From Rhodopseudomonas infernalis (lineage in GTDB: Bacteria > Pseudomonadota > Alphaproteobacteria > Rhizobiales > Xanthobacteraceae), in the NCBI RefSeq assembly GCF_022271405.1, contig NZ_JAJNAL010000007.1:1-64000 (forward strand): 64,000 nt of DNA. Direction: 5' to 3'. The notes beneath the pieces were generated by a model. The model did no database searches and was not told the origin of the DNA. It was given only the letters and a program-made list of their open reading frames with translations. Within the stretch, counting starts at the first letter, position 1, and the number at the start of each line of letters is the position of its first letter. A program made the position numbers and the translations under genes. This document shows, piece after piece, positions 26,441-46,012 of the stretch.

Positions 26441-27434
26441 TCGGGCTGTGCTGCCGGTCCTGGCGTGCGTCGTCATCGTGCTGTTCTTGCTGTCGCTCGG
26501 AGTCGGTCCCGTCCGGCTGTCGATCGGTTCGGTGATCACGGCGCTGTTCGGCGGCGGCAGCGACACGGAGCGATCGATCGTCCAGGACATCCGCCTGCCG
26601 CGCGCGATCCTTGCGGTCGCGATCGGCGCAATGCACGGCCTAGCCGGCGCCGCGCTGCAGGGCCTGCTGCGCAATCCACTGGCGTCACCCTCGCTGTTCG
26701 GCGCACCGCAGGCGGCCGCTTTTGGCGCCGTGCTGGTGATTTCGCTCGGCCTCGCCGACGCACTGTCGTTCCTGCTACCGCTGTCGGCGATCGCAATGGC
26801 GTTCGTCTCGGTGTTCATCCTGATCGCGGTCGCCGGGCGCAGCGCCAATCTGCTGCTGCTGATCCTCGCCGGCCTGGCGCTGTCGAGCCTCGCCGGCGCG
26901 GCGACCTCGCTGGCGCTCAATCTCGCGTCCAATCCGTTCGCCGCGCTGGAGATCTCGTTCTGGCTGCTCGGCTCACTCGAGGACCGCAGCTTCCAGCACG
27001 TCGCGTTGGCGTTGCCGTTCATGGTCTGCGGCGCGGCGCTGCTGCTGACGCGCGGCGAGGCGTTTCGCGTGCTCAGCCTCGGCGAGGAGGCCGCGCAAAG
27101 CCTCGGCGTCGACGTTGGGCGGCTGCGGCTGCAGGTGATCCTCGGCGTCGCGCTCGGTGTCGGCGCCGCCGTCTCCGTCTCCGGGACGATCGGCTTTATC
27201 GGTCTGGTGATCCCGCATCTGATGCGCCCGCTGGTCGGGCACGATCCGGGCCGGCTGCTGCTGCCGAGCGCGTTCGGCGGCGCGGCCTTGCTGCTCGCCG
27301 CCGACGTTGCGGTGCGCCTGATCCCGTCGAGCAGCGGCATCAAGGTCGGCGTGCTGACGGCGCTGATCGGCGTCCCGTTCTTTCTCTATCTGGTGGTGCG
27401 TGAGCGCCGCGCACTCGGCGGCAGCATGGCATGA
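26400..27434 (+). CDS. btuC: FecCD/BtuC-type ABC transporter permease, probably for cobalamin
   Basis: 344 aa with about 10 transmembrane segments. The family blocks are clear: QDIRLPRAILAVAIGAMHGLAGAALQ, RNPLASPSLFGAPQ, and SVSGTIGFIGLVIPHLMR. The B12 riboswitch directly upstream makes corrinoid the likely cargo. The ATG at 26400 gives a reasonable N-terminus but lacks a ribosome binding site (see the overlapping leader). Its stop overlaps the ATPase start by four bases. Confidence 0.88.
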   Translation: MRRAAASNAVRAADRAVLPVLACVVIVLFLLSLGVGPVRLSIGSVITALFGGGSDTERSIVQDIRLPRAILAVAIGAMHGLAGAALQGLLRNPLASPSLFGAPQAAAFGAVLVISLGLADALSFLLPLSAIAMAFVSVFILIAVAGRSANLLLLILAGLALSSLAGAATSLALNLASNPFAALEISFWLLGSLEDRSFQHVALALPFMVCGAALLLTRGEAFRVLSLGEEAAQSLGVDVGRLRLQVILGVALGVGAAVSVSGTIGFIGLVIPHLMRPLVGHDPGRLLLPSAFGGAALLLAADVAVRLIPSSSGIKVGVLTALIGVPFFLYLVVRERRALGGSMA

Positions 27435-28219
27435 CCCAGAACGATTACTTCGTCGCCGACGGGCTGCGGGTCAGCCTCGGCGGCCGTGTGTTGGTGCAGC
27501 CGCTCTCGTTCGGCTTGCCGCGCGGCTGCATGGCGGTGGTCGTGGGCCCGAGCGGCGCCGGCAAGACCACGCTGCTGCGCGCGCTTGCCGGACTCGTGAC
27601 GGCGGAGGGCCGGGTGCTGATCGGCGGCGAGGATGTCGCCCGGATGCCGGTGCGGGAGCGCGCGCGGCGGCTTGCTTACGTGCCGCAAGGCGAGGCGGTG
27701 CATTGGCCGCTGCCGGTCCGCGACGTCGTCGCGCTGGGCCGCTATCCGCATGGCGGCGCCGATCCGCGCCGGCTTGGGGCGGGCGATCTCGACGCTGTGA
27801 GCCGCGCCCTCGACGACGTCGACCTGGTGCCGCTGCAGCATCGCCCCGTCACCGAATTGTCCGGCGGCGAGCGGCGGCGCGTCGCGATCGCGCGGGCCCT
27901 GGCGACGGGCGCGCCGGTCCTGCTCGCCGACGAGCCGATCGCTTCTCTCGATCCCTACTTCCAGCTCTCGGTGATGGCGCTGCTGCGGCGGCAGGCCCGC
28001 GCCGGCGCGCTGGTGATTGTCGTCACCCACGATATCGGCCTCGCGGCGCGGTTCGCCGACCAGGTGCTGATGCTGCGCGACGGCAGGCTGGCGGCGATGG
28101 GCCCGCCGGCCGCCGTGCTGGCGCCGCCGCAACTCGCCGAGGTGTTCGCGATCGATGCGTACCGTGCCGATCACGAGGCGCAGCCGGTGCTGGTGCCGTG
28201 GGCGATGCGGAGCGCGTGA
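27431..28219 (+). CDS. btuD: ABC transporter ATP-binding protein, BtuD type
   Basis: 262 aa. Walker A GPSGAGKTT is near residues 38-46, the signature LSGGERRRVAIARAL near 145, Walker B VLLADEPIASLD near 165, and the switch His in VVTHDI near 200. It drives corrinoid import together with the permease and binding protein of this operon. It overlaps the permease by four bases and the next gene by one base (TGATG). Confidence 0.9.
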   Translation: MTQNDYFVADGLRVSLGGRVLVQPLSFGLPRGCMAVVVGPSGAGKTTLLRALAGLVTAEGRVLIGGEDVARMPVRERARRLAYVPQGEAVHWPLPVRDVVALGRYPHGGADPRRLGAGDLDAVSRALDDVDLVPLQHRPVTELSGGERRRVAIARALATGAPVLLADEPIASLDPYFQLSVMALLRRQARAGALVIVVTHDIGLAARFADQVLMLRDGRLAAMGPPAAVLAPPQLAEVFAIDAYRADHEAQPVLVPWAMRSA

Positions 28220-30522: not shown

Positions 30523-32097
30523 ATGACCATCGACGTCGACGAACTGATTTCCCGTATCCGCTATTCGGCTCGTCCGGAGACCGGTCCTCGCCGCGCCCGC
30601 GCGCTGATGATCCAGGGCACCAGTTCGGATGTCGGCAAGAGCATGGTGGTGGCCGGGCTGTGCCGTGCCTACGCGCGGCGCGGACTGGCGGTGCGTCCGT
30701 TCAAGGCGCAGAACATGAGTAACAACGCGGCCGTCGCGGCAGACTCCGATCTGCCGCCCGGGCCGGACGGAACGGCGCCGCGCGGCGAGATCGGCCGCGC
30801 GCAGGCGCTGCAGGCGCGGGCCTGCGGCGTGCCGCCATCGATCCACATGAACCCGGTGCTGCTGAAGCCGCAGAGCGAGATCGGCGCGCAGGTGGTGCTG
30901 CGGGGGCGGGTGCTCGGCAACTGTCCGGCGCGGATCTATCACCACATGCGGCAGCGGCTGATCCCGGCGGTGCTCGACAGTTTCGAGCGCGTCGCCGCCG
31001 AGTCCGATCTGGTGCTGGTGGAGGGCGCCGGCAGCGGCGCCGAGGTTTATCTGCGTGCCTCCGACATCACCAACATGCGGTTTGCAGAGGCGGCCGATCT
31101 GCCGGTCGTATTTCTGTCAGACATCGACCGCGGCGGCACCATGGCGGCGCTGGTCGGCAGCTACGTACTTCTCAGCGAGGCCGATCGGGCGCGTGTCGTC
31201 GGCTACCTGATCAACAAATTCCGCGGCGACTTCTCGCTGTTCGAGCCCGGATGCCGCACCATCACCGAACAGACCGGCTGGCCGTTCCTCGGCGTGCTGC
31301 GCTGGTTTCCCGGCGCCGACCGTTTGCCGGCCGAAGACTCGCTGGCGCTGGAACGCGCGGCTGCGGCGAGCCGCGGACGGTTGAAAATCGCCGTGCCGCG
31401 GCTGGCGCGCGTTGCCAATTTCGACGATCTCGATCCACTGGTCGCAGAGCCCGATATCGATCTGCGCTGGATCCAGCCCGGCTCGCCGATTCCGGCCGAT
31501 ATCGACGTGGTGATCCTGCCGGGCTCCAAGGCGACGCGCAGCGAACTGGATATGATCCGGCGCGAAGGCTGGGACATCGACATCCAGGCCCATGTCCGGC
31601 GCGGCGGCCGCGTGGTGGGGCTGTGCGCCGGCTTCCAGATGCTCGGCCGCGTCGTCCGCGATCCGCTTGGCCTCGAAGGTCCTCCCGGCGAGACCGCCGG
31701 GCTCGGCCTGCTGGACATTGAAACCGAAATCTCCGGCGACAAACGGCTCGTTGAGATCGACGCCCGCGACGGCCTCAGCGGCTGCCGCGTCACCGGCTAC
31801 GAAATGCATATGGGCCGGACCATCGGCGCCGGCCTGGCGCGGCCGTGGCTGACGCTGGACGACGGCGCCGGCAAGCTTCGGCCCGAAGGCGCGATGTCGG
31901 CTGATGGCCGGGTCGTCGGCGGCTATCTGCACGGCATCTTCGGCGGCGACGATTTCCGGTCGGCCTGGCTGGGGCAGGTCGGCGCCGCAACCTCGGGCCT
32001 CGATTTCGAACGCCGCATCGACGACGCACTCGAGACGCTAGCCGACCATTGCGAAAGCAATCTCGACCTCGATGCACTGCTGGCCTTGGCGCGTTGA
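30523..32097 (+). CDS. cobQ: Cobyric acid synthase CobQ
   Basis: 524 aa. It amidates the b, d, e and g carboxylates of adenosylcobyrinic acid a,c-diamide with glutamine and ATP. The P-loop-like GTSSDVGKS is at residues 32-40, followed by FKAQNMSNNA. The C-terminal glutamine amidotransferase domain has the nucleophile Cys in VVGLCAGFQMLGR and the closing GGYLHGIFGGD. ATG at 30523 lacks a strong ribosome binding site, but the length suits the family with a short N-terminal extension. Confidence 0.95.
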   Translation: MTIDVDELISRIRYSARPETGPRRARALMIQGTSSDVGKSMVVAGLCRAYARRGLAVRPFKAQNMSNNAAVAADSDLPPGPDGTAPRGEIGRAQALQARACGVPPSIHMNPVLLKPQSEIGAQVVLRGRVLGNCPARIYHHMRQRLIPAVLDSFERVAAESDLVLVEGAGSGAEVYLRASDITNMRFAEAADLPVVFLSDIDRGGTMAALVGSYVLLSEADRARVVGYLINKFRGDFSLFEPGCRTITEQTGWPFLGVLRWFPGADRLPAEDSLALERAAAASRGRLKIAVPRLARVANFDDLDPLVAEPDIDLRWIQPGSPIPADIDVVILPGSKATRSELDMIRREGWDIDIQAHVRRGGRVVGLCAGFQMLGRVVRDPLGLEGPPGETAGLGLLDIETEISGDKRLVEIDARDGLSGCRVTGYEMHMGRTIGAGLARPWLTLDDGAGKLRPEGAMSADGRVVGGYLHGIFGGDDFRSAWLGQVGAATSGLDFERRIDDALETLADHCESNLDLDALLALAR

Positions 32098-33673: not shown

Positions 33674-34498
33674 TCAGCGCGGGTCGAAATCGGTGGCGAT
33701 CGTGATGTCGCGCCAGGCGTCGATATCGCTGCGGAAGGCTGCCAGCTTTCGCTCAGCGGCCGCGTGAGCGACCGGGCCGAGCGGCAGATGCAGCGGGGCG
33801 TGATCGTCATCGACGGCCTGAATGATCACCGCGATGGCCTTGTCGGGATCGCCGGCCTGACTGCCGTTGTTGGTTTCGCGATAGTGCCTGCGCGAGGTCC
33901 CGGCATATTCCGGCATCTCATTGGCCGCGACTGTGATCGAACGGCCCAAGAAATCCGTGCGAAACGGACCGGGCTCGACGATCAGCACGCGGATGGCGAA
34001 CGGCTTCAGCTCGGCGGCGAGCGCTTCGGAAATCCCTTCGACGGCGAACTTGGCGGCGTTGTAGTAACCGCCGCCGCCACCGCCCGCGATGCCGGCGACC
34101 GACGACATGTTGACGATTGCTCCGCCGGAACGTCGCAGCACGGGTAGGGCGGCTCTGGTGGTTTCGATCAGACCGAAGACGTTCACCTCGAACATCGGGC
34201 GATACTCTTCTGGCGTGCCTTCCTCGATCGCGCCGTGCAGGCCGTAGCCGGCATTGTTCACGAGCACGTCGAACCCGCCGAAGGTCTCGACCGCCTTTGC
34301 GACCGCCGCCTTGGCTGCCGCCGCATCTGTCACATCAAGCGGCACGGCGATCATCCGGCCGCCGAACGGCTCGGTCATTTTTTCGATCGCGCGGGCGTTT
34401 CGGGTGGTCGCGATGACTTGATCGCCGCGCCGAGCTGCAGCGAGCGCGAGCCGCTGGCCGAAGCCGCTGGAGCAGCCTGTGATGAGCCAGGTTTTCAT
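33674..34498 (-). CDS. Short-chain dehydrogenase/reductase
   Basis: 274 aa classical SDR. The NAD(P) motif TGCSSGFG is at residues 7-14, NNAG at 81-84, catalytic Ser in MSSVAG and YxxxK at Tyr146-Lys150. The Arg in TTRNAR after the second strand suggests NADPH preference. A glycine run (AGGGGGGYYNAAK) before the active Tyr is unusual. First gene of the SDR-hydrolase-VOC group and divergent from a LysR gene. Confidence 0.9.
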   Translation of the reverse strand: MKTWLITGCSSGFGQRLALAAARRGDQVIATTRNARAIEKMTEPFGGRMIAVPLDVTDAAAAKAAVAKAVETFGGFDVLVNNAGYGLHGAIEEGTPEEYRPMFEVNVFGLIETTRAALPVLRRSGGAIVNMSSVAGIAGGGGGGYYNAAKFAVEGISEALAAELKPFAIRVLIVEPGPFRTDFLGRSITVAANEMPEYAGTSRRHYRETNNGSQAGDPDKAIAVIIQAVDDDHAPLHLPLGPVAHAAAERKLAAFRSDIDAWRDITIATDFDPR

Positions 34499-34603
34499 TG
34501 CGTTTTCTCCGTGTGTTTTGCGGACGACGCCGAGCTGTCGTCCTCAAGCCGCCAACCTAGGGTGCTTAGATTTGTTCTTTGAGTGACATAATTGTATTCT
34601 CGG

Positions 34604-34619
34604 CGTTCAATTCTGAACG
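34604..34619. promoter_or_regulatory. Inverted repeat before the second lysR gene
   Basis: CGTTCA-ATTC-TGAACG is a perfect 6-base inverted repeat with a four-base spacer, 11 bases before the LysR ATG and in the 132-base region shared with the divergent SDR operon. It is a candidate operator. The region just before it (34565-34603) is AT-rich and should carry the promoters. Confidence 0.4.
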
Positions 34620-34630
34620 GGTATGGCAAC

Positions 34631-35491
34631 ATGGAATGGAGTGACGTCAGGGTGTTTCTCGCCGTTGCGCGATCCGGCACGCTCGGCGGCGCCGCGCGTA
34701 CGTTGCAGACGAGCCATCCAACCGTCGGCAGGCGCCTGCGCGCGCTCGAGCAGGCGATCGGTCACACGCTGTTCCAGCGGACTGCCGACGGTCTTGTGCT
34801 GACCGAAGAGGGCCACGGGATCATCGCGCTGGCAGAGCAGATGGAAGAGGGCGCTCTGGCGATGGAGCGCCGGCTGGCGGGGCAGGAGCAGACTCTCAAA
34901 GGCAGCCTGCGGATTTCATCGGCGGACTGGTTCGGGGCCTATGTGCTGCCGCCGATCCTGGCGGATTTCGCGAACGCCTACCCCAATGTCGACGTCGAGA
35001 TCCTGACCGGCACGCGGCTGTTCAACCTCGCGCAACGCGAAGCCGACGTCGCTTTCCGCATCGTGCCGTTCAACACGGCCGACGTCGTTCAACGGCGGCT
35101 GTTCCGGCTCGAATACGCCGTTTACATCGCCGAGGAGTCGCCTGACCCGAAATACGGCGACGGGGCCGGTTTCCGGCTGATCACCCACGACACGTCTACG
35201 GGACATTTCCCCGACATCGCGTGGCTCATCGAGAGTTTCCCCAACGCGAGGCCGGTGCTGCGGTCGAACAACCGCAACGTCCAGGGGCGCATGTGCCGGC
35301 AAGGCGTCGGCATCGCTGTGCTGCCGCGCGTGGTCGGCAATCAGATCCCGGGGATCCGCAGGCTCGACCTGCCGACACAGCCGCCAGCGCGAGACATCTG
35401 GATGGGATACCACCGCGATCTTCGGCGCCTTCAGCGCCTCCGTGCGTTCATCGCGAACGTCTCGAACCATCTCGTCAACGCGACCGCATGA
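34631..35491 (+). CDS. LysR-type regulator divergent from the SDR operon
   Basis: 286 aa. The N-terminal helix-turn-helix (WSDVRVFLAVARSGTLGGAA ... QTSHPTVGRRLRALE) is followed by a short LysR effector domain. This subgroup (WSDVRVFL, HPTVGRR) commonly regulates a divergent oxidoreductase gene. ATG at 34631 gives the standard N-terminus. It likely controls the SDR-hydrolase-VOC genes and itself. Confidence 0.88.
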   Translation: MEWSDVRVFLAVARSGTLGGAARTLQTSHPTVGRRLRALEQAIGHTLFQRTADGLVLTEEGHGIIALAEQMEEGALAMERRLAGQEQTLKGSLRISSADWFGAYVLPPILADFANAYPNVDVEILTGTRLFNLAQREADVAFRIVPFNTADVVQRRLFRLEYAVYIAEESPDPKYGDGAGFRLITHDTSTGHFPDIAWLIESFPNARPVLRSNNRNVQGRMCRQGVGIAVLPRVVGNQIPGIRRLDLPTQPPARDIWMGYHRDLRRLQRLRAFIANVSNHLVNATA

Positions 35492-35549
35492 TGCGCGTCC
35501 GGACTTCGCCGGAGATACGGCCAACCATCGGACTTTTCGCGTAGCGAGC

Positions 35550-35628
35550 AGCCCGCGCAGGAGCGCAGCGATGTGCGGGACATTGGTGGCTCGGCCGCGT
35601 CCCGCATGTCGCTGCGCTCATGCGGGCT
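35550..35628. repeat. Palindromic repeat between convergent genes
   Basis: Two arms of about 30 bases (35550-35581 and 35599-35628; core GAGCGCAGCGATGTGCGGGA and its complement) differ at only a few positions and surround a 17-base loop. It lies between the LysR gene and the converging transporter, where it could serve as a two-way transcription stop. The style is that of the abundant palindromes in Bradyrhizobium/Rhodopseudomonas genomes. Confidence 0.75.
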
Positions 35629-35661
35629 ACATTTGCTCCTCACACGAGCGACGATCTGAGG

Positions 35662-36963
35662 CTATATCTCGGCCTTTCGCGCGGCGAAGATGCAGAGCAG
35701 CGAGACCAAAGCGGCTGCCAGCTGATAGTAGCCGACATAGCTCATGCCGTAATTGGCCTGTAGCCAGGTCGCGATATAGGGCGCCAGCGACGCGCCGAAA
35801 ATCCCGGCCATGTTGAAGGTGATCGACGAGCCGGTGTAGCGCACCCGGGTCGGGAACGGCGCCGCCAGCGCAGCGCCGATCACGCCGTAGTTCAGGCCGA
35901 ACAGCAGCATGCCGACGGTGGTGAAGGCGTAGATGCCGGGCAGGCCGGCGGTCAGCAGCGGCGCCAGCGCGAACGAGAACAGGCCGAGGATGATCGTGCT
36001 GCCGAGCAGCAGGGCGCGGCGTCCGAAGCGGTCGCCGAGCTTGCCGGCGGCGATCGTGGAGACGCCGAACAGCACCGAGCCGTAGACCTGCACCAACAGC
36101 GCGTCGCGGAACGACACCCCGGCGACCTTGACGTTGTAGGACAACAGATACGCGGTGCAGATGTAGAACGCCACGAAGGTGATCAGCGCCATGAAGGTGC
36201 TGATCGCCATGTTGCGCTTGTGATGACGGAATACTTCCACCACCGGCACGGAGACACGTTCGGCCTTGTCGATCGCCTTCTGGAATTCGGGCGTCTCGGT
36301 GATCGACAGCCGCACCCACAGGCCGATCGCGATCAGCGCGATCGAGGCGATGAACGGGATGCGCCAGCCCCAGTTGAGCAGCGCGTCCTGCGACATGAAA
36401 TGCAGCAGCAGCCAGAACACACCCGAGGCCAGAAACAGCCCGACCGGCGCGCCGAGCTGCGGAAACATGCCGTACCAGCTCCGCTTGCCGTCGGGCGCGT
36501 TCTCGGTGGCGAGCAGCACCGCGCCGCCCCATTCGCCGCCCAGGCCAAATCCCTGGCCGAACCGGCACAGCGCCAGCATCAGCGGCGCCAGCACGCCGAT
36601 CTGTTGGTAGCCCGGCAACAGGCCGATCACCACCGTCGAAATCCCCATGGTCAGCAGCGCCGCGACCAGCGTCGTCTTGCGGCCGACCTTGTCGCCGAAA
36701 TGGCCGAAGATGATGGCGCCGAGCGGACGGGCGAAGAACGCGATCGAGAACGTCGCGAACGACGCCAGCAGCGCCGTCATCGGATCGCTGTTGGGAAAGA
36801 ACAGCGTCGGAAACACCAGCACCGCGGCGGTGGCGTAGACGTAGAAGTCGAAGAACTCGACCGTGGTGCCGATCAGGCTCGCCAGCAACACCTGCGCGGG
36901 TGAGTTCAACGGTTTGCCGCGTCCGGCCGCGGTGGCCGGGGGCACGAAATTGGTGGCGTCCAT
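35662..36963 (-). CDS. MFS transporter, metabolite:H+ symporter (MHS) type
   Basis: 433 aa with 12 predicted transmembrane segments. TTVEFFDFYVYATAAVLVFP in helix 1, RPLGAIIFGHFGDKVGRKTTL between helices 2 and 3, and GFGLGGEWGGAVLLATENAP in helix 5 are signatures of the MHS family (KgtP, ProP, ShiA relatives). It imports a carboxylate or osmolyte with protons; the substrate is not predictable. Monocistronic. Confidence 0.9.
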   Translation of the reverse strand: MDATNFVPPATAAGRGKPLNSPAQVLLASLIGTTVEFFDFYVYATAAVLVFPTLFFPNSDPMTALLASFATFSIAFFARPLGAIIFGHFGDKVGRKTTLVAALLTMGISTVVIGLLPGYQQIGVLAPLMLALCRFGQGFGLGGEWGGAVLLATENAPDGKRSWYGMFPQLGAPVGLFLASGVFWLLLHFMSQDALLNWGWRIPFIASIALIAIGLWVRLSITETPEFQKAIDKAERVSVPVVEVFRHHKRNMAISTFMALITFVAFYICTAYLLSYNVKVAGVSFRDALLVQVYGSVLFGVSTIAAGKLGDRFGRRALLLGSTIILGLFSFALAPLLTAGLPGIYAFTTVGMLLFGLNYGVIGAALAAPFPTRVRYTGSSITFNMAGIFGASLAPYIATWLQANYGMSYVGYYQLAAALVSLLCIFAARKAEI

Positions 36964-37245
36964 GAGTGCTGATCCGTCGGATGCGGTTTCGCCCGCATCT
37001 GCGTGCGGTCAACCAGGAGAGGCAGCGACTTACCGCAATATTCCGCGCCGGCCAACCGCATCGCCGCCATGCCGCCCATGTCCCACGGGCGGGCCGGGGC
37101 GATTTCAGGGAGGCTGATGACCCTGCCTTAGGATCGACAGCAAGGCGGTAGGCCTTACACGGCGCGGCCCTGGCAAGCCGGTCAATACAGCTAACCAAGG
37201 AGGGCGGTGCCTGAATACTCCTCATTCAGCCTCCGCAATTGGGGC
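36964..37245. other. Intergenic region with no recognisable gene
   Basis: It separates the divergent transporter and the membrane-protein/regulator operon and should hold the transporter promoter. I found no RNA gene, long palindrome or plausible small reading frame with a ribosome binding site. The right end is AT-richer and leads into the promoter described next. Confidence 0.6.
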
Positions 37246-37287
37246 TTGCGTTGGCTTTGTACCGACGTATACTTTGCGATACAAAGT
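37246..37287 (+). promoter_or_regulatory. Candidate promoter and operator copy 1 (ACTTTG-N5-CAAAGT)
   Basis: TTGCGT (37246-37251) and TATACT (37268-37273), 16 bases apart, fit a sigma70-type promoter. The perfect 6-base inverted repeat ACTTTG-CGATA-CAAAGT at 37271-37287 overlaps the -10 element, a position suited to repression. The membrane-protein ATG follows at 37298 behind a GAGGTGGGG site. The same arms recur at 38323-38339. Confidence 0.6.
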
Positions 37288-37297
37288 GAGGTGGGGC

Positions 37298-37915
37298 ATG
37301 CGCGATCTCGACAAGGCCTTGGCTGACATCTTCGCCATTCGCACCCAGATCGCTGCGGGCACGGCGTTCCGTGGCTACGGCCCGGCTGCACTGGCGGGTA
37401 CCGCCGGCCTGGCTGTGGTCACCACGATCGTGCAGTCGCTCTGGCTCGACGACCCGAACAGCCAGCTGCTTGCGTTCTTCTCGGGCTGGATCGCGACCGC
37501 GCTGTTGTCCGCAAGTTTGATCTGGCTCGAGATGCGGGCGCGTTCGCGGCGTCACCATTCGGGTCTCGCCGATGCGATGATCCATCAGGCGGTCGAACAA
37601 TTCGTGCCCGCCGGCGTGGCGGGAGCCTTGCTCGGTGTGACGCTCTGGAAGTTTGCCCCTGGGACGCTCTGGATGCTGCCCGGCTTGTGGCATGTCCTCG
37701 TCGGCCTCGGGATTTTCGCTTCTGCTCGGATGCTGCCGCGCCCGGTGGCACTGGTCGGCGCATGGTACTTCGTCGCGGGATTTAGCGTGCTGGCGCTCAG
37801 CAGCGAAAGTGCGGCCGTCTCGCCGCTGACGATGGGTGTTCCGTTCGTGGTCGGTCAATTGCTGATGGCTGCCGTGCTGCGGTTTGCGTCGGGAGACGAC
37901 GATGCCGAAGCCTGA
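37298..37915 (+). CDS. Polytopic membrane protein cotranscribed with a winged-helix regulator
   Basis: 205 aa with about six hydrophobic segments (near residues 28-48, 58-78, 105-125, 128-147, 150-168 and 175-195). No catalytic motif is recognised. The N-terminus (DLDKALADIFAIRTQIA) is a short amphipathic helix. Its end overlaps the regulator gene by 14 bases, so the two are coupled; small membrane proteins paired with this regulator type are common, but the function is unknown. Confidence 0.8.
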   Translation: MRDLDKALADIFAIRTQIAAGTAFRGYGPAALAGTAGLAVVTTIVQSLWLDDPNSQLLAFFSGWIATALLSASLIWLEMRARSRRHHSGLADAMIHQAVEQFVPAGVAGALLGVTLWKFAPGTLWMLPGLWHVLVGLGIFASARMLPRPVALVGAWYFVAGFSVLALSSESAAVSPLTMGVPFVVGQLLMAAVLRFASGDDDAEA

Positions 37916-38282
37916 CACGAGCGCTGCACCGTTCTCCTATGAGGGGCTGGATCGTGTAATCCACGAGAAGGCGAGGCTGGGGATGCTGACCTCGCTGATG
38001 GCGCATCCGAAGGGGTTGGCATTCGCAGATCTGAAGAAGTTGTGCGGACTGACCGATGGCAATCTCAGTCGGCACCTTCAGGTGTTGCAGGAAGCCGGGA
38101 TGGTCGAGGTCACCAAGGGATATGAGGCCAACCGGCCGCTCACGACCTGTCGTTTGACGAAGACCGGCCGCCGTCAGTTTCTCGATTACCTGGCCGTGCT
38201 GGAGCAACTCGTGCGCGACGCCGCCAAGGCGGCCGGTAGTAGCGATCCGCTGCCGACCGGACTTCAAACACGCCCTGCCTGA
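37902..38282 (+). CDS. Winged-helix transcriptional regulator (HTH_34-like)
   Basis: 126 aa. The pattern LDRVIHEKARLGMLTSL, then LKKLCGLTDGNLSRHLQVLQEAGMVEV and a wing with KTGRRQFLDYL is that of the small winged-helix (PF13601-type) repressors. No metal-binding cysteines or effector domain are visible. It most likely binds the ACTTTG-N5-CAAAGT palindromes that flank its own operon, giving autoregulation. ATG at 37902. Confidence 0.85.
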   Translation: MPKPDTSAAPFSYEGLDRVIHEKARLGMLTSLMAHPKGLAFADLKKLCGLTDGNLSRHLQVLQEAGMVEVTKGYEANRPLTTCRLTKTGRRQFLDYLAVLEQLVRDAAKAAGSSDPLPTGLQTRPA

Positions 38283-38322
38283 AATTCGTCACGCCTGAAC
38301 TACGCCCCTTTTTTGCATGGAG

Positions 38323-38339
38323 ACTTTGTGATGCAAAGT
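38323..38339 (+). promoter_or_regulatory. Candidate operator copy 2 at the cis-prenyltransferase start
   Basis: ACTTTG-TGATG-CAAAGT has arms identical to the copy at 37271-37287 and also a five-base spacer. It straddles the uppS-like start codon (ATG 38331-38333). A repressor here would block initiation or early elongation and would tie the prenyltransferase and radical SAM genes to the regulator just upstream. Confidence 0.55.
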
Positions 38340-39053
38340 AATCTACATCCCAAACTACATGTCGGCATCATCATGGACGGCAACGGGCGATGGGCGACGC
38401 GGCGAGGGTTGTCGCGCCTGCGCGGGCATCAGGCCGGTGTCGAGGCGATCCGTCGCGTGGTGGAGGCCGCGCCGGAGCAGGGCATCGGCACGCTGACGCT
38501 GTTCGCATTCTCCAGCGACAATTGGCGACGGCCGAGATCCGAAGTCTCGGCGCTGATGGCGCTGTTGCGCTCGTACCTGGTGAACGAGGTCAGGCGTCTG
38601 GTCGACAACGGCATCCGCCTGACAGTCATTGGGCGTCGCGACCGTCTGCCGGACGGCATCGCCGCAACGATCGGACGTGCCGAAGCGGTGACCGCTGGTG
38701 GCGACGCTCTCAACTTGCGCATCGCCGTCGATTACTCGGCACGAGATGCGATCGTGAGTGCCGCTTTGCGTGCCGGCGGAATGGAAAATTGCAGCCGCGA
38801 CACCTTTTCCGACCTCGTCACAGGTGGATCGAAGCTTCGCGACGTCGACCTCATCATCCGCACCAGCGGCGAGCGGCGGCTGTCCGACTTCCTGCTTTGG
38901 GAAAGCGCGTATGCCGAATTGTACTTCACCGACCGGATGTGGCCGGACTTCGATGCCGACGATCTCGCCGACGCCATGACGTCGTTCCACGGCCGCGAGC
39001 GCCGGTTCGGCGGCCTGCCATCTGCGAAACGCGATCTTTCGATCAGCGCCTAG
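38331..39053 (+). CDS. uppS: Cis-prenyltransferase (UppS family), probably a second copy
   Basis: 240 aa. All motifs for chain elongation with isopentenyl diphosphate are kept: IMDGNGRWA with catalytic Asp16, GHQAG, FSSDNWRRP, IRTSGERRLSDFLLWES and YAELYFTD. It should be active. The housekeeping uppS usually sits in a frr-uppS-cdsA operon, so this lone copy beside a radical SAM gene may make a dedicated polyprenyl diphosphate; chain length is unknown. ATG at 38331 lies eight bases after GGAG and inside operator copy 2. Confidence 0.88.
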   Translation: MQSNLHPKLHVGIIMDGNGRWATRRGLSRLRGHQAGVEAIRRVVEAAPEQGIGTLTLFAFSSDNWRRPRSEVSALMALLRSYLVNEVRRLVDNGIRLTVIGRRDRLPDGIAATIGRAEAVTAGGDALNLRIAVDYSARDAIVSAALRAGGMENCSRDTFSDLVTGGSKLRDVDLIIRTSGERRLSDFLLWESAYAELYFTDRMWPDFDADDLADAMTSFHGRERRFGGLPSAKRDLSISA

Positions 39054-39069
39054 GCGAAGGGACTCCGTG

Positions 39070-40596
39070 ATGCGTATCCTTCTGGTCAACGTTGCCCATC
39101 CCGCGATCGGCAGCCGGATTCCGAGCGATCACTTGCCGCCGCTGGGCCTGCTCGCGATCGGCGGGCCGCTGATCGATGACGGCCACGACGTGCGTTTGCT
39201 CGATGCCGAGTTCGGCCCGATATCGACCGCGCAGATCGTCGAACAGGCACGCGACGTCCGTCCCGATGCGGTGCTGTTCGGCCATTCCGGGTCGACCTCC
39301 GGCCACCCGGTCATCGCCGAAGTCGCTCAGGCGATCGCGCATGCCATTCCCGGCGTAGCCATCGTCTACGGAGGCGTGTTTCCGACCTACCACTGGCAGG
39401 AGATCCTCGACGCCGAGCCGTACGTCACGGCTATCGTGCGTGGGGAGGGCGAGGAGACGGCGCGGCGTTTAATGACCGCGCTCGATGGTGGCGATGATCT
39501 CGCGGGCGTCCGTGGGATTGCCTACCGCAGAGCCGGGCAAGCCTGCGCGACGCCGCCGGCCGTAGTGATCGGCGATCTCGACGCCTATCGGATCGGCTGG
39601 GAGCTGATTGACCACGCTCGCTACAGCTATTGGGGCGGACTGCGCGCCGTCGTGGTGCAGTTCTCGCGCGGCTGCCCGCATCTGTGCAGTTACTGCGGAC
39701 AACGCGGCTTCTGGACGCGCTGGCGGCACCGCGATCCGGTGCTGTTCGCCAAGGAGCTCGCGCGGCTGCATCGGGAGCAGGGCGTCAAGGTCGTCAACTT
39801 TGCCGACGAGAACCCGACGGTGTCGAAGAAGGTCTGGCAGACGTTCATCGAGGCGTTGATCGCGGAGGAGGTCGATCTGATCCTGGTGGGGTCGACCAGG
39901 GCCGACGACATCGTCCGCGACGCCGACATTCTGCATCTGTACAAGCAGGCCGGCTGGGATCGCTTTCTGCTGGGGCTGGAGAACACCGACGACGCCACGC
40001 TGGCGCTGATCCGCAAGGGTGCGGCGACGACCACCGATCGGGAGGCCATCCGTCTGCTGCGTCGGCACGGCATCCTGTCGATGGCCACCTGGGTGGTCGG
40101 CTTCGTCGAGGAGACCGACCGCGATCACTGGCGCGGGCTGCGCCAGCTACTGTCCTATGATCCCGACCAGATCCAGATGCTGTACGCAACGCCGCACCGC
40201 TGGACGCCGTATTTCGGCCAGGCCGCCGAACGCCGGGTGATCACGACCGACCGGCGGCACTGGGACTACAAGCATCAGGTCCTCGCCAATCGCAACATGC
40301 CGCCGTGGCGCGTCCTGCTCTGGTTCAAGTTCACCGAGGTGGTGCTTCAGGCCCGCCCGAAGGCGCTGTGGCGCACCTACTTGGAGCGCCGCCGGCGCCT
40401 GCGTCACGCGATGCGATGGTACACGCGGATCGGACGCCGGGTCTGGCCCTACGAGATCTGGCAGTTCCTGCGAACCCAGCATTTGAAGATCGGACCGACC
40501 GTCGGTGAATTCTGGGGTGACGGACAAGCGGTCGACGAAAACGCGATGGCCACATCGCGGCCACGACGCCAGCTTCCCAATCAAAGCGCCGCCTGA
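39070..40596 (+). CDS. BchE-like B12-binding-fold radical SAM protein
   Basis: 508 aa. The N-terminal about 150 residues form a B12-binding-like fold (MRILLVNV, PPLGLLAIGG, VYGGVFPTYHWQEIL), without the classic DxHxxG lower-ligand motif. The radical SAM cluster is Cys202-x3-Cys206-x2-Cys209 (CPHLCSYC), followed by FADENPTVSKK and YATPHRWTPYF, which parallel the anaerobic Mg-protoporphyrin ester cyclase BchE. The basic C-terminal part is also BchE-like. It lies 16 bases after the prenyltransferase gene, so both probably act on one product. GTG at 39067 is an alternative start. Confidence 0.8.
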   Translation: MRILLVNVAHPAIGSRIPSDHLPPLGLLAIGGPLIDDGHDVRLLDAEFGPISTAQIVEQARDVRPDAVLFGHSGSTSGHPVIAEVAQAIAHAIPGVAIVYGGVFPTYHWQEILDAEPYVTAIVRGEGEETARRLMTALDGGDDLAGVRGIAYRRAGQACATPPAVVIGDLDAYRIGWELIDHARYSYWGGLRAVVVQFSRGCPHLCSYCGQRGFWTRWRHRDPVLFAKELARLHREQGVKVVNFADENPTVSKKVWQTFIEALIAEEVDLILVGSTRADDIVRDADILHLYKQAGWDRFLLGLENTDDATLALIRKGAATTTDREAIRLLRRHGILSMATWVVGFVEETDRDHWRGLRQLLSYDPDQIQMLYATPHRWTPYFGQAAERRVITTDRRHWDYKHQVLANRNMPPWRVLLWFKFTEVVLQARPKALWRTYLERRRRLRHAMRWYTRIGRRVWPYEIWQFLRTQHLKIGPTVGEFWGDGQAVDENAMATSRPRRQLPNQSAA

Positions 40597-40786
40597 GTGG
40601 GGTGCGTGACGGACGGCGCTCCAGCGGCCCAGGCCCATATCCGTAATTCGCATAAGGTATATTATGGAATATCATTATTGATCTGGATTGTCAGTACCTT
40701 GCGCGGGCATGCGAATATTGGCGCGACTTGCCACTGCTCGGCGCGCACGGTGCATCACACGCCGCAACGCGGCGCGCTGCGCTGTC

Positions 40787-40867
40787 GTAGGATGGGTTGA
40801 GCGCAGCGAAACCCATCGACCACGTGCACGGCACTTGATGGGTTTCGCTGCGCTCAACCCATCCTAC
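40787..40867. repeat. Perfect 31-base inverted repeat
   Basis: Arms 40787-40817 and 40837-40867 are exact complements over 31 bases (core GGATGGGTTGAGCGCAGCGA) around a 19-base loop. No T-run. It is a dispersed palindrome of the kind common in this bacterial group and may fold in RNA or block exonucleases. Confidence 0.85.
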
Positions 40868-40881
40868 GCACTGTGTCTGGC

Positions 40882-40978
40882 CCGCCGATCCGGGACCCCG
40901 GTTCTTTGACGTCCATCCGAACACGAACTGCCGGCTCTGTGTCTGGCTTCCCCAGAAACCGGGGCCCCGGATCGGCGG
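40882..40978. repeat. 24-base inverted repeat of another family
   Basis: Arms 40882-40905 and 40955-40978 (CCGCCGATCCGGGACCCCGG and its near complement) match with a single internal difference. A 49-base unpaired middle separates them. It begins only 14 bases after the previous palindrome, and the word GTGTCTGG appears just outside arm 1 and again near arm 2. Confidence 0.75.
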
Positions 40979-41165
40979 CGCGTTGCGCCTTGTCCGGGGC
41001 ACGTGGCTTGGGCCGATTGCCTAAGCACGCGGCTGGACAACTCCGGTGGCGGCCGTCCGCCAGCCGGAAATCGCTTGACCGGCTGGGCCGAAATGATGAC
41101 CAAAGGCGCGTCGACTTTTCGGGTCTGGTCGAACACAAAAAAGACGGGTCAAGGAGGAAGCGAAG

Positions 41166-42185
41166 ATGAGCGTGTCACGCAGGATGGTGTTGAAGGCTTC
41201 GGCGGCAGCGGCCGTTGTCGGCGGCGTCGGGGCGCCGTGGGTGGCGCGCGCGGCGGAGGCCGAGTTCGTCTACAAGTATGCCAACAACCTGCCCGACAGC
41301 CATCCGCTCAACGTCCGCGCCCGCGAGATGTCGGCGGCGATCAAGGCCGAGACGGGTGGCCGGTTCGACCTCCAGGTGTTCCCGAACAACCAGCTCGGCT
41401 CCGACACCGACGTGCTGAGCCAGATCCGCTCAGGCGGCGTCGAGTTCTTCACGCTGTCCGGCCTGATCCTGTCGACGCTGGTGCCGGCAGCCTCGATCAA
41501 TGGCATCGGCTTCGCATTCCCGGACTACGACACGGTCTGGAAGGCCATGGACGGCGAACTCGGCGCCCATGTCCGCGGCGAGATCAACAAGGCCGGCCTG
41601 ATCGTGATGGACAAGATCTGGGACAACGGCTTCCGCCAGACTACGTCGTCGACGCGGCCGATCAACGGTCCCGAGGACTTCAAGGGCTTCAAGATCCGCG
41701 TGCCGGTGTCGCCGCTGTGGACCTCGATGTTCAAGGCGTTCGATGCGGCGCCCGCCTCCATCAACTTTAGCGAAGTCTATTCGGCGCTGCAGACCAAGGT
41801 GGTCGAAGGCCAGGAAAATCCGCTGGTGCTGATCTCGACCGCGAAGCTGTACGAAGTGCAGAAGTACTGCTCGCTGACCAACCACATGTGGGACGGCTTC
41901 TGGTTCCTGGCCAACCGCCGCGCCTGGGAACGGCTGCCGGCGGACGTGCGCGAGATCGTCGCCAAGAACATCAACGCGGCAGCGATGAAGGAACGCGAAG
42001 ACACCGCCAAGCTCAACGCCACCGTCAAGGAAGAGCTGACCGCCAAGGGCCTGATCTTCAATCAGCCGACGGTGACGCCGTTCCGCGACAAGCTGCGCAG
42101 CGCCGGCTTCTATGCCGAATGGAAAGGCAAATACGGCGAGCAGGCTTGGTCGCTGCTCGAAAAGTCTGTCGGCAAGCTGGCGTAA
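41166..42185 (+). CDS. TRAP transporter solute-binding protein (DctP family)
   Basis: 339 aa. The signal has a twin-arginine motif (SRRMVLK, residues 4-10) and ends near ARAAEA, so export by Tat is likely. The mature part has the DctP pattern: KYANNLPDSHPLN, FPNNQLGSDTDVLSQIRSG, and the substrate-Arg region FKGFKIRVPVSPLW. It delivers an organic acid to the fused DctQM downstream. Strong AAGGAGG ribosome binding site. First gene of the operon. Confidence 0.92.
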   Translation: MSVSRRMVLKASAAAAVVGGVGAPWVARAAEAEFVYKYANNLPDSHPLNVRAREMSAAIKAETGGRFDLQVFPNNQLGSDTDVLSQIRSGGVEFFTLSGLILSTLVPAASINGIGFAFPDYDTVWKAMDGELGAHVRGEINKAGLIVMDKIWDNGFRQTTSSTRPINGPEDFKGFKIRVPVSPLWTSMFKAFDAAPASINFSEVYSALQTKVVEGQENPLVLISTAKLYEVQKYCSLTNHMWDGFWFLANRRAWERLPADVREIVAKNINAAAMKEREDTAKLNATVKEELTAKGLIFNQPTVTPFRDKLRSAGFYAEWKGKYGEQAWSLLEKSVGKLA

Positions 42186-42191
42186 GCCGCG

Positions 42192-44075
42192 ATGGCTGAT
42201 GCCCCGGTCTCCGAACTGACGGCTGCCGAGCCGCTGGTGCTGCCGACGCGCCGATCGCTGATCGGCACGTTGGAGGCCGGGCTCGGCCGGCTGGTCGAAA
42301 TCCCCGCGGCCATTCTGGTGGTCGCGGAGATCGTCGTGCTGTTTGCCGGCGTGGTGTCGCGCTACGTGTTTCACAGCCCGCTGATCTGGTCGGACGAGCT
42401 CGCCTCGATCCTGTTCCTGTGGCTGGCGATGTTCGGCGCGGCGGTCGCATTCCGCCGCGGCGAGCACATGCGGATGACCGCGCTGGTGGCAAAAGCGACG
42501 CCGCGGAGCCGGGCGTTTCTCGACCTGGTGGCGATCTGCGCCGCGCTGGCATTCCTGCTGCTGATCGCGGCGCCGGCCACCGAATACGCCTACGAGGAAA
42601 GCTACATCACGACGCCGGCGCTGTCGCTCGCCAACAGCTGGCGCGCCGCGGCGCTGCCGGTCGGCACCGGGCTGATGGCGGTGTTCGCGCTGCTGCGGCT
42701 GATCCGGTTCGGCGACTGGCGGCTGGTCGGGACAGCCGCCCTCACCGTCGCGCTGCTGATCGGCGTCTTCTGGCTGGCGCAGCCGCTGTTCAAGCCGCTC
42801 GGCAACATCAATCTGCTGATCTTCTTCGTCGGCGTCGCCGGGCTGTGCGTGTTCGCCGGCGTGCCGATCGCGTTCGGATTCGGCCTGTCGATCTACGGCT
42901 ATCTGGCGCTGACGACGCGGACGCCGCTGATGGTGCTGGTCGGCCGGATGGACGAGGGCATGAGCCACCTGATCCTGCTGTCCGTGCCGCTGTTCGTCTT
43001 CCTCGGCCTGCTGATCGAGATGACCGGGATGGCGCGGGCGATGGTGGCGTTTCTCGCCAGCCTGCTCGGCCATGTCCGCGGCGGCCTGCACTACGTGCTG
43101 GTCGGCGCGATGTATCTGGTGTCCGGCATTTCCGGCTCCAAGGCTGCCGACATGGCGGCCGTCGCGCCGGTGCTGTTTCCGGAGATGAAGGAGCGCGGCG
43201 CGAAGCCGGGCGATCTCGTCGCCCTGCTCTCCGCGACCGGCGCACAGACCGAAACCATCCCGCCGAGCCTGGTGCTGATCACCATCGGTTCGGTCACCGG
43301 CGTGTCGATCTCGGCGCTGTTCACCGGCGGCCTGCTGCCCGGCGTGGTGCTGGCGATCACGCTGTCGACGCTGGTGTGGTGGCGCTATCGCGACGAGGAT
43401 CTCAGCCACATCAAGCGCGCCAGCCGCGCCCAGATCGGCAAACTGCTGATCATCGCCCTGCCCGCATTGGCACTGCCGTTCGTGATCCGCGCGGCCGTGG
43501 TCGAAGGCGTCGCCACCGCCACCGAGGTCTCGACCATCGGGATTGTCTATGCGGTGCTGGCCGGCCTGCTGATCTATCGCAAGTTCGACTTCAAGCGGCT
43601 GCTGCCGATGCTGATCGAGACCGCGGCGCTGTCCGGTGCGATCCTGCTGATCATCGGCACCGCCACCGGCATGGCCTGGGGCCTGACGCAGTCCGGGTTC
43701 TCCCGGTCGCTGGCGACGGCGATGACCGGCCTGCCCGGCGGCCCGCCGACCTTCCTGGCGGTGTCGATCGTCGCTTTCGTGATCCTCGGCAGCGTGCTCG
43801 AAGGTATTCCGGCGATCGTGCTGTTCGGCCCGCTGCTGTTTCCGATCGCCCGCGCCGTCGGCATTCACGAGGTGCATTATGCGATGGTCGTGATCCTGGC
43901 GATGGGCATCGGATTGTTCGCACCGCCGTTCGGCGTCGGCTATTATGCGGCCTGTGCGATCGGCCGGGTCGATCCGGCCGAGGGCGTGCGCCCGATCTGG
44001 GGTTATCTGCTGGCGCTGATGGTCGGCCTGATCATCGTCGCGGCGGTGCCGTGGATTTCGATCGGATTTCTGTAG
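42192..44075 (+). CDS. Fused TRAP transporter permease DctQM
   Basis: 627 aa. Residues 1 to about 185 form the small DctQ-type subunit (four helices; VSRYVFHSPLIWSDELASILFLWLAM region). The rest is the DctM-type subunit with about 12 helices (GVPIAFGFGLSIYGYLAL, then VGAMYLVSGISGSKAADMAAVAPVL, and a C-terminal IGLFAPPFGVGYYAAC). The Q-M fusion is common in TRAP systems. It uses the sodium or proton gradient to import the DctP-bound acid. It follows dctP by six bases. Confidence 0.92.
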   Translation: MADAPVSELTAAEPLVLPTRRSLIGTLEAGLGRLVEIPAAILVVAEIVVLFAGVVSRYVFHSPLIWSDELASILFLWLAMFGAAVAFRRGEHMRMTALVAKATPRSRAFLDLVAICAALAFLLLIAAPATEYAYEESYITTPALSLANSWRAAALPVGTGLMAVFALLRLIRFGDWRLVGTAALTVALLIGVFWLAQPLFKPLGNINLLIFFVGVAGLCVFAGVPIAFGFGLSIYGYLALTTRTPLMVLVGRMDEGMSHLILLSVPLFVFLGLLIEMTGMARAMVAFLASLLGHVRGGLHYVLVGAMYLVSGISGSKAADMAAVAPVLFPEMKERGAKPGDLVALLSATGAQTETIPPSLVLITIGSVTGVSISALFTGGLLPGVVLAITLSTLVWWRYRDEDLSHIKRASRAQIGKLLIIALPALALPFVIRAAVVEGVATATEVSTIGIVYAVLAGLLIYRKFDFKRLLPMLIETAALSGAILLIIGTATGMAWGLTQSGFSRSLATAMTGLPGGPPTFLAVSIVAFVILGSVLEGIPAIVLFGPLLFPIARAVGIHEVHYAMVVILAMGIGLFAPPFGVGYYAACAIGRVDPAEGVRPIWGYLLALMVGLIIVAAVPWISIGFL

Positions 44076-44125
44076 CGGCGTCGCGGGCTCGGACGGAGCG
44101 ACGCCACGTCAAGTGAGAGGTGGTC

Positions 44126-45775
44126 ATGAGCGCTCCCCAGGGTCATTACAGCATCGGGCTCGACAAGACGCCGGCCAACTACGTGCCGCTGTCGCCGCTG
44201 AGCTTTCTCGAGCGCTCCGCCAACGTCTATCCGGACCTCACCAGCGTGGTCTATGAGGGGCGGCACTACACCTGGAAGGAAACCCGCGCGCGCTGCCGGC
44301 GCTTCGCCTCGTGGCTGGTGCGCAGCGGCATCGGCCGCGGCGACACCGTGGCGGTGATGCTGCCCAACGTGCCGGCGATGGTCGAGGCGCATTTCGCGGT
44401 GCCAATGGCCGGCGCGGTGCTGAACGCGCTGAATATCCGGCTCGACGCGCCGGCGATCGCGTTCCAGCTCGAGCACGGCGGCGCCAAGATCATTCTGGTC
44501 GATCCGGAATTTTCGGCCGTGATCGCCGAGGCACTGAAGCTGATGAAATCGCCGAAGCCGCTGGTGATCGACGTCGACGACAAGATGTTTCCCGGCAGCC
44601 ATCGCATCGGCGAACTCGAATACGAATACGCGGTCGCGTCCGGCGATCCGTCGTTCACCGGCGAGCGGCCGCAGGACGAGTGGGACGCGATCTCGCTCGG
44701 CTACACGTCCGGCACCACCGGCAATCCCAAGGGCGTGGTGACGCATCACCGCGGCGCTTATCTCAACGCCGTCAGCAACATCCTTGCGGCCAATCTCGGC
44801 GCCCATCCGGTGTATCTGTGGACGCTGCCGATGTTTCACTGCAACGGCTGGTGCTTCCCGTGGACGCTGGCCGCCGCCGCCGGCGTCAACGTCTGCCTGC
44901 GCAAGGTCGATCCGGCCAAGATCTTCGAACTGATCCCCAAGCACGGCGTCACCCACATGTGCGGCGCGCCGATCGTCTTCAATGCGCTGATCAACGCGCC
45001 GGACGCGCCGAAGGGCGCGGCTGCCAAGCCGGTCGTCGGCCTGATCGCGGGCGCGGCGCCGCCGGTGGCGGTGCTGGCCGGCGCCGAGACCATCGGCATC
45101 AAGCTGACCCACGTCTACGGCCTGACCGAAGTCTATGGCCCCGCCTCGGTCTGCGCCGAGCAGCCCGGCTGGGACGATCTCAGCGTCGCCGAGCGCGCCC
45201 AGCTCAAGCGCCGGCAGGGCGTGCCCTACCCACTGCAGGAAGCCGTCACCGTGCTCGATCCCGAGACGATGCGGGAAGTGCCGCGCGACGGCGAGACCAT
45301 CGGCGAGGTGATGTTCCGCGGCAACATCGTGATGAAGGGCTATCTCAAGAACGAGAAGGCCACCAAGGAAGCCCTCGCCGGCGGCTGGTTTCACACCGGC
45401 GACCTCGGCGTGCTCGACGCCGAAGGCTACGTCATCATCAAGGACCGCTCCAAGGACATCATCATCTCCGGCGGCGAGAACGTCTCCTCGGTCGAGGTCG
45501 AGGACGTGCTATACAAACACCCCGCGATCCTGTTCGCCGCCGTGGTTGCCAAGCCCGATCCGAAATGGGGCGAAGTCCCCTGCGCCTTCGTCGAGCTGAA
45601 GGATGGTGCGAACGCCTCGGAGGCCGAGATCATCGCCTACTGCCGCGAACACCTCCCCGGCTTCAAGACCCCGAAGACCATCGTGTTCTCGGCGATCCCC
45701 AAGACCTCGACCGGCAAGATCCAGAAATTCATGCTGCGCGATCAGGTGAAGTCGGCGAAGGCGATCAGCGAGTAG
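44126..45775 (+). CDS. AMP-forming acyl-CoA synthetase
   Basis: 549 aa ANL-superfamily ligase. The P-loop YTSGTTGNPKGV is at about residues 193-204, followed by TLPMFHCNGWCFPW, YGLTEVYGPASVC, the GWFHTGDLG hinge region, and the C-terminal catalytic Lys in KTSTGKIQKF. It resembles medium-chain or methylthiopropionate-CoA ligases. Encoded 50 bases after the TRAP permease, it probably activates the imported carboxylate. ATG at 44126 follows GAGAGG at five bases. Confidence 0.88.
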   Translation: MSAPQGHYSIGLDKTPANYVPLSPLSFLERSANVYPDLTSVVYEGRHYTWKETRARCRRFASWLVRSGIGRGDTVAVMLPNVPAMVEAHFAVPMAGAVLNALNIRLDAPAIAFQLEHGGAKIILVDPEFSAVIAEALKLMKSPKPLVIDVDDKMFPGSHRIGELEYEYAVASGDPSFTGERPQDEWDAISLGYTSGTTGNPKGVVTHHRGAYLNAVSNILAANLGAHPVYLWTLPMFHCNGWCFPWTLAAAAGVNVCLRKVDPAKIFELIPKHGVTHMCGAPIVFNALINAPDAPKGAAAKPVVGLIAGAAPPVAVLAGAETIGIKLTHVYGLTEVYGPASVCAEQPGWDDLSVAERAQLKRRQGVPYPLQEAVTVLDPETMREVPRDGETIGEVMFRGNIVMKGYLKNEKATKEALAGGWFHTGDLGVLDAEGYVIIKDRSKDIIISGGENVSSVEVEDVLYKHPAILFAAVVAKPDPKWGEVPCAFVELKDGANASEAEIIAYCREHLPGFKTPKTIVFSAIPKTSTGKIQKFMLRDQVKSAKAISE

Positions 45776-45867
45776 TACGGGCGGTCGCCCTGCCCCGCTG
45801 GCGCTGAGTGCGGCAGCGTGCTGACGGCGCTTCGTAGCAGTGAAGTCGTATAGTCGATGACGCGCGC

Positions 45868-46012
45868 CGTCATTCCGGGGCGCGCCATCGGACGGCCTCC
45901 AGCGGCCGATGGTGCGAACCCGGAATCTCGAAATTGGTGCGCGAGGCGTCGGCCGCGCTGTGCCCGTGGCAGATTCCGGGTTCGCTCGCTGCGCTCGCGC
46001 CCCGGAATGACG
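45868..46012. repeat. Long intergenic repeat, copy 1
   Basis: 145 bases that start CGTCATTCCGGGGCGCG and end with the complementary CGCGCCCCGGAATGACG, so the ends pair. The interior (GGCGTCGGCCGCGCTGTGCC and surroundings) is shared with copy 2. Compared with copy 2 it carries about 27 extra bases near the left end. Confidence 0.8.

Follow-up and report, generated by a model that had tools for sequence, protein, structure and literature searches.

In the window (the whole stretch of 64,000 nucleotides of Rhodopseudomonas DNA analysed in this work), four genes follow one another on the + strand, in the order membrane protein, winged-helix regulator, cis-prenyltransferase (called UppS2 here) and radical SAM protein (Table 1). 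The preliminary description had reported the last two as a pair, an UppS-type enzyme lying 16 bases before a radical SAM protein; both genes are intact and the 16-nt spacing is exact. The two-gene pair is therefore real, but the unit begins two genes earlier, with the membrane protein and the regulator, which had been missed. The membrane protein and regulator genes overlap by 14 nt, and 48 nt separate the end of the regulator gene from the start of UppS2. The membrane protein, which has another possible start upstream at 37274, is predicted to form seven helices, one N-terminal and six probably transmembrane. Neither Pfam (at E ≤ 0.001) nor NCBIfam assigns it to a family, and a search of the PDB with its AlphaFold model (pLDDT 86.8) returned no match at E ≤ 0.001.

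The next genes (41184–45775) start about 590 nt past the radical SAM gene and were found in this genus only among the loci compared; the neighbours outside the module read as TRAP transporter and acyl-CoA ligase-like genes. A gene for CobQ, cobyric acid synthase, lies upstream of the module (30523–32097; NF001989, 609 bits for a cut-off of 273). An ABC permease/ATPase pair (26448–28219), also upstream, resembles BtuCD or iron-siderophore importers and scores under all cut-offs. These genes, 7–12 kb from the module, might be a source of corrinoid close to the cobalamin-type radical SAM gene. A search for a cobalamin riboswitch gave no Rfam match at 34000–46000 of the window, and in seven loci with a lone radical SAM gene (one that has no UppS2 beside it) Rfam returned tRNA only. 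Further upstream, the − strand encodes a multisubunit monovalent cation/H+ antiporter (13919–19291), with subunits A, D and E assigned by NCBIfam in the three genes tested.

Table 1. Genes of the module and features of the radical SAM protein, in window coordinates
Feature	Position	Strand	Evidence or remark
Membrane protein	37298..37915	+	205 aa; first module gene
Winged-helix regulator (HTH_34)	37902..38282	+	126 aa; PF13601 74.2 bits, cut-off 27
UppS2, second cis-prenyltransferase	38331..39053	+	240 aa; PF01255, NF011412
BchE-like B12-binding radical SAM protein	39070..40596	+	508 aa; TIGR02026 525 bits
B12-binding domain, residues 22-134	39133..39471	+	PF02310 79.2 bits, cut-off 32.1
Radical SAM core, residues 197-353	39658..40128	+	PF04055 70.4 bits
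CPHLCSYC cluster motif, residues 202-209	39673-39696	+	sequence
FADENPT, residues 244-250	39799-39819	+	sequence
Basic, Trp-rich C-terminal helices	40285..40479	+	65 residues: 16 R/K, 3 D/E, 6 W; helices in model

A second cis-prenyltransferase

UppS2 carries the cis-prenyltransferase domain over its full length (PF01255, 243 bits). It resembles E. coli UppS (PDB 1jp3, 5cqb) in a near full-length match and, when aligned with it, retains the conserved motifs MDGNGRWA, GH, FSS-[DE]-NW, IRT-[SG]-GE and AELYFTD. It also scores 416 bits, for a cut-off of 334, with NF011412/PRK14839 (di-trans,poly-cis-decaprenylcistransferase, within PF01255 and TIGR00055), where the decaprenyl product is a matter of the model's name only; the UppS2 proteins of L034 and L131 exceed the same cut-off (420 and 352 bits). 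Our literature search found no role or operon for decaprenylcistransferase in Rhodopseudomonas. The loop and helix lengths of UppS2 are similar to those of E. coli UppS, which suggests that its product is likely a medium-length Z-polyprenyl diphosphate.

A housekeeping cis-prenyltransferase, 48% identical to UppS2, is also present in the genome (G000:C29). The UppS2 rows of a 64-row tree (SH-aLRT support only) all form one clade, with a support of 100, which agrees with the earlier proposal of a dedicated enzyme. This clade differs from housekeeping UppS by a DYS[ASG]R signature, present in 39 of 39 rows (DYSARD in the window copy), whereas the 23 housekeeping rows read [NS]YG[GAS]R in 16 cases and NYSGR in one (L184), the motif being unreadable in six.

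A relative of BchE distinct from BchE

The radical SAM protein has the layout of cobalamin-dependent radical SAM enzymes: a B12-binding domain precedes the radical SAM domain, and the three cysteines of the cluster motif, C202, C206 and C209, are invariant in 39 aligned sequences (the window copy and 38 of the 80 loci described below). From these features it is predicted to bind cobalamin and a [4Fe-4S] cluster. The top Foldseek matches of its AlphaFold model (pLDDT 82.6; poor at residues 304–317 and 490–508) are TsrM, CysS, OxsB and TokK (E 2.7e-19 to 2.2e-16), all of them cobalamin radical SAM enzymes, so the modelled fold favours the corrinoid link suggested earlier; AprD4, which is not known to use cobalamin, comes close behind with an about equally good match (E 1.5e-16, TM-score 0.68). 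The four top matches have the predicted fold in common with the radical SAM protein, but only 16–20% identity, and their substrates are unrelated. The basic helices at the C-terminus of the protein may serve for membrane or phosphate contact.

The BchE-like organization noticed in the preliminary description was borne out, as the protein shares with BchE the B12-binding and radical SAM domains, the C-x3-C-x2-C motif and the FW and DE-x-P elements. Its TIGR02026 score, above the cut-off of 481 bits, would be compatible with its being BchE itself, the anaerobic Mg-protoporphyrin IX monomethyl ester cyclase, or a reserve copy of that enzyme. We consider this extremely improbable. A genuine BchE, presumably flanked by bchJ and hemN, is encoded elsewhere in the same genome (G000:C17; 792 bits) and is 33–35% identical to the radical SAM protein. 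Across 339 genomes of the phylum, TIGR02026 scores fall between 741 and 822 bits for five loci and between 520 and 560 bits for eight loci including the window, then at 427 bits or less, which leaves a gap from 560 to 741. Four lone relatives tested also pass the cut-off (529–577 bits), and BchE-like proteins score 520–577 bits in all against 741–822 for BchE. In a tree built quickly from 86 rows (SH-aLRT only; 20 of 106 rows were left out, namely 16 close Bradyrhizobium rows, the fragment L205, L022, L162 and L203), the five BchE rows form a clade with a support of 100 and are separated, again with a support of 100, from the 75 others (73 BchE-like rows and two intermediates), on very long branches. 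Fifty-four positions are more than 97% conserved in the BchE-like rows while the five BchE rows have in common another letter or a gap there, and the basic residues H376, R377, K401 and H402 show this pattern. Bacteriochlorophyll genes are not found among the neighbours of the radical SAM gene, a location that does not fit BchE, and relatives of the protein occur in Stenotrophomonas, Pyxidicoccus and Caulobacter, which to our knowledge are not phototrophs. A chlorophyll role was thus rejected on the basis of the tree and of the second, genuine BchE. Synechocystis mutants of three BchE homologue candidates are reported to have shown no cyclase-type phenotype, and the candidates were held not to be BchE (PMC4500134). 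Another study describes BchE, purified and reconstituted, as forming hydroxy and keto intermediates and as requiring cobalamin for the final cyclisation (PMC13142503).

Conservation of the pair within a four-gene module

Searching 84,980 species genomes with two peptide patterns yielded 384 relatives of the radical SAM protein, of which the best 80 were kept. UppS2 lies directly upstream of the radical SAM gene in 49 of these best 80 of 384, with a gap of 4–294 nt (median 99), so that the neighbourhood comparison called for in the preliminary description shows a pair conserved across genera. All four genes are present in the same order in 49 of the 49 UppS2-adjacent loci, which belong to Rhodopseudomonas, Bradyrhizobium, Methylobacterium, Aurantimonas, Rhodobium and others. 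These four-gene counts rest on tblastn, because the home-made caller that located neighbouring genes overlooks some of them or gives them the wrong orientation; with this caller, no other gene cluster was shared as widely as the four-gene one. The pair is real and conserved, and it is part of a four-gene module. In the other 31 of the 80 loci there is no UppS2 beside the radical SAM gene, and 27 of them have at least 4.3 kb upstream; L053, L082, L107 and L111 are too close to a contig end for a UppS2 neighbour to be judged.

Genome surveys also associate the module genes. Among 149 genomes of the family, 12 have the radical SAM gene (E ≤ 1e-60), 18 have UppS2 (E ≤ 1e-68), eight have both (Fisher p = 3e-6 for co-occurrence, with kinship ignored) and six have them adjacent; in two of the eight (L030 and L031) UppS2 is elsewhere in the genome, accompanied by a membrane protein and a regulator of its own. 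In 385 genomes of the class, the membrane protein was found six times (E ≤ 1e-15), each time with the regulator and UppS2 alongside, and the radical SAM gene twice (E ≤ 1e-150). The gene distances of the four module genes correlate (r 0.52–0.78; for each of the six pairs, 0 of 2000 permutations were as high) over 24 chosen adjacent loci, a result that shared species ancestry alone could give. In a plasmid collection, the radical SAM protein was present in five records, UppS2 in 59 (the best, from Aureimonas, at 57%), the membrane protein in one and an Ldi-like protein in three.

In the 86-row tree of the radical SAM proteins, the adjacent rows fall in one supported set (96) of 40 rows, which comprises 34 adjacent forms, five lone ones and one undecided, while lone forms of Chloroflexota, Planctomycetota, Myxococcota and one cyanobacterial plasmid are outside. 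The pairing, as read from this tree, looks like one gain in Hyphomicrobiales followed by losses rather than many independent events. A single gain is also what would be expected if the radical SAM gene had simply landed once behind UppS2 in Hyphomicrobiales and been kept there by shared transcription, and the variable gap between the two genes and their separate losses (see below) would fit such hitch-hiking. We nevertheless regard it as rather improbable, given that the order is constant in 49 of 49 adjacent loci from several genera while other neighbours vary, that L104 provides a second link, and that a different B12-radical SAM gene is coupled to UppS2 in L133.

Each gene occurs without the other

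Of 18 genomes in which the radical SAM gene is lone, 16 encode just one cis-prenyltransferase and two (L097 and L121) have a second one placed outside the UppS2 clade, so that none of the 18 has an enzyme of this clade; two cis-prenyltransferases were found in four of four adjacent controls. Conversely, 10 of the 18 UppS2-bearing family genomes gave no match to the radical SAM protein at E ≤ 1e-60. The Bradyrhizobium-like L034 and L036, whose flanks match B. manausense L057, lack the radical SAM gene, and L035 (G064) has kept a 94-nt radical SAM remnant between flanks that match the same B. manausense locus. A damaged radical SAM copy, in two pieces in different frames, was observed in L024 (G056), and in L044, from R. 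palustris JSC-3b, the copy meets a stop sooner. In 12 UppS2 loci that have no intact radical SAM gene next to UppS2 (L030, L031, L034–L043), the regulator is always kept and the membrane protein is kept in 11, the contig of L041 ending there. The lone genes and the losses in L034, L036 and L035 indicate that each gene can be maintained in the absence of the other. An obligate partnership of the two enzymes is contradicted by how often each is alone, and this separate persistence is the main evidence against the simple two-step pathway initially envisaged.

Downstream of UppS2, 11 of the 15 loci that lack a BchE-like gene have no recognised partner (including L038, cut by a contig end), and the four others have Ldi-like and DgkA-like proteins (L131), another radical SAM protein (L133), CreD (L039) or a DUF4153 protein (L132). 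The DUF4153 gene overlaps UppS2 in L132, and CreD comes after UppS2 in L039. Such partners, together with the wide occurrence of the radical SAM gene alone and of the UppS2 unit without it, would be accounted for if the two enzymes shared regulation and not a substrate, UppS2 raising the undecaprenyl supply in an envelope response that the membrane protein and the regulator control and in which the radical SAM enzyme alters some other envelope or cofactor molecule. This explanation has a substantial chance of being correct but appears doubtful to us, as the Ldi-like and DgkA-like partners better suit isoprenoids and as a general link between CreD and the membrane protein–regulator pair was rejected: none of 27 CreD loci in the 385 class genomes has the pair within flanks of at most 1.5 kb.

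Isoprenoid-type neighbours

In a Sphingomonadales MAG (L104), the membrane protein and regulator genes are followed by genes for an Ldi-like protein (PF18566, 206 bits), a DgkA-like kinase (PF01219, 112 bits), a 181-aa protein and the BchE-like protein, UppS2 being absent. On the Aureimonas plasmid pAU20b (L214), the membrane protein, regulator and UppS2 genes precede Ldi-like (233 bits) and DgkA-like (100 bits) genes, and in L131 (G296) the same three genes are followed by two whose products are related to the Ldi-like protein (phmmer, 408 bits) and the DgkA-like protein (101 bits) of L104. UppS2 and the Ldi-like gene overlap by 4 nt in both L131 and L214. Ldi acts on terpene alcohols, and undecaprenol is phosphorylated by some DgkA-family kinases. 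Ldi-like and DgkA-like genes were found among all loci compared in L104, L131 and L214 only (plus overlapping stretches), and in 0 of the 49 adjacent loci within the stretches compared; a search for more operons like L104 found the radical SAM gene (E ≤ 1e-120) in one of 147 Sphingomonadales genomes, that of L104 itself. In L133 (G412), UppS2 overlaps by ATGA a gene (L133:9919-11355) for a 478-aa B12-radical SAM protein of another family, whose best models, HpnJ (77 bits) and BchE (65 bits), are both far under cut-off; among the other loci compared, only the overlapping L129 holds a relative of it at E ≤ 1e-25. Together, the links in L104, L131, L214 and L133, each seen in one to three loci, are most economically explained by a polyprenyl substrate.

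Hopanoids are another isoprenoid class on which the radical SAM enzyme could act, in the manner of HpnP, HpnR and HpnJ. Radical SAM enzymes of hopanoid synthesis exist (PMC12583986), and the HpnR model TIGR04367 does match the window protein, but at 141.7 bits for a cut-off of 650. The squalene cyclase model (TIGR01787, E ≤ 1e-20) has no match in 14 of the 18 lone genomes (three others being over cut-off and one weak) and in two of four UppS2-adjacent genomes, in a survey of genomes of unstated completeness, some of them MAGs. A hopanoid substrate is thus very unlikely.

A possible regulated isoprenoid-lipid operon

We tentatively favour, at somewhat less than an even chance, a regulated isoprenoid-lipid operon in which a polyprenyl chain, or a product linked to one, would be modified by the cobalamin radical SAM enzyme. 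Families, motifs, gene order, conservation and clades are read from the sequences, and from them we infer co-expression, regulation, cofactors, substrate and reaction. The winged-helix protein would switch on UppS2, with the membrane protein probably acting as its sensor or partner. UppS2 would extend an allylic diphosphate with IPP, the chemistry of its family, giving a Z-polyprenyl diphosphate whose chain is probably medium-length. Relying on cobalamin, SAM and a [4Fe-4S] cluster, the BchE-like protein would then remove hydrogen from an unactivated carbon, either in this chain or in a lipid that the chain carries, the outcome being methylation, hydroxylation or desaturation without O2. Where UppS2 is absent, the radical SAM enzyme would draw on the housekeeping undecaprenyl pool. 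Methylation, ring contraction and ring formation are described as reactions of cobalamin radical SAM enzymes (PMC13331322).

In support of the isoprenoid-lipid operon are the order fixed in 49 of 80 loci, the correlated distances, the membrane protein always accompanied by the regulator and UppS2 (6/6), the Ldi-like/DgkA-like loci and the L133 overlap, the Foldseek matches and the conservation of the four basic residues. Against it are the 27 of 80 loci without UppS2, the 18 lone genomes devoid of a UppS2-clade enzyme, the survival of UppS2 after radical SAM loss, the apparent single gain of the pairing, the Ldi-like and DgkA-like genes missing from all 49 adjacent loci, the 11 of 15 partnerless UppS2 loci and the AprD4 match. 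In a broader and unlikely form of the proposal, Z-polyprenyl chains would be methylated or oxidised by cobalamin radical SAM enzymes in a new branch of isoprenoid metabolism. Such enzymes would have been recruited at least twice beside UppS2 (the BchE-like protein in most loci, and an unrelated B12-radical SAM protein in L133) and would work in some bacteria with Ldi-like and DgkA-like proteins to supply the envelope with a polyprenol or polyprenyl phosphate in modified form.

Building blocks of the cell wall and of surface glycans travel on polyprenyl phosphates, and we know of no bacterial enzyme described that edits a polyprenyl phosphate chain by cobalamin radical chemistry. We found no paper that joins a cis-prenyltransferase or undecaprenyl with BchE-like or radical SAM enzymes, and none on a BchE radical SAM protein in Bradyrhizobium or on linalool dehydratase with polyprenyl. 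The conserved operon points to an undescribed way of altering isoprenoid chains or their products. If this is correct, a widespread protein labelled bchE in non-phototrophs would gain a real role, and photosynthesis inferred from that label would need correction. As the TIGR02026 cut-off admits BchE-like paralogues, Sphingobium and Allocoleopsis plasmids carry such genes labelled bchE; the BchE-like loci tied to this over-labelling are L161, L162, L112, L122, L120 and L093.
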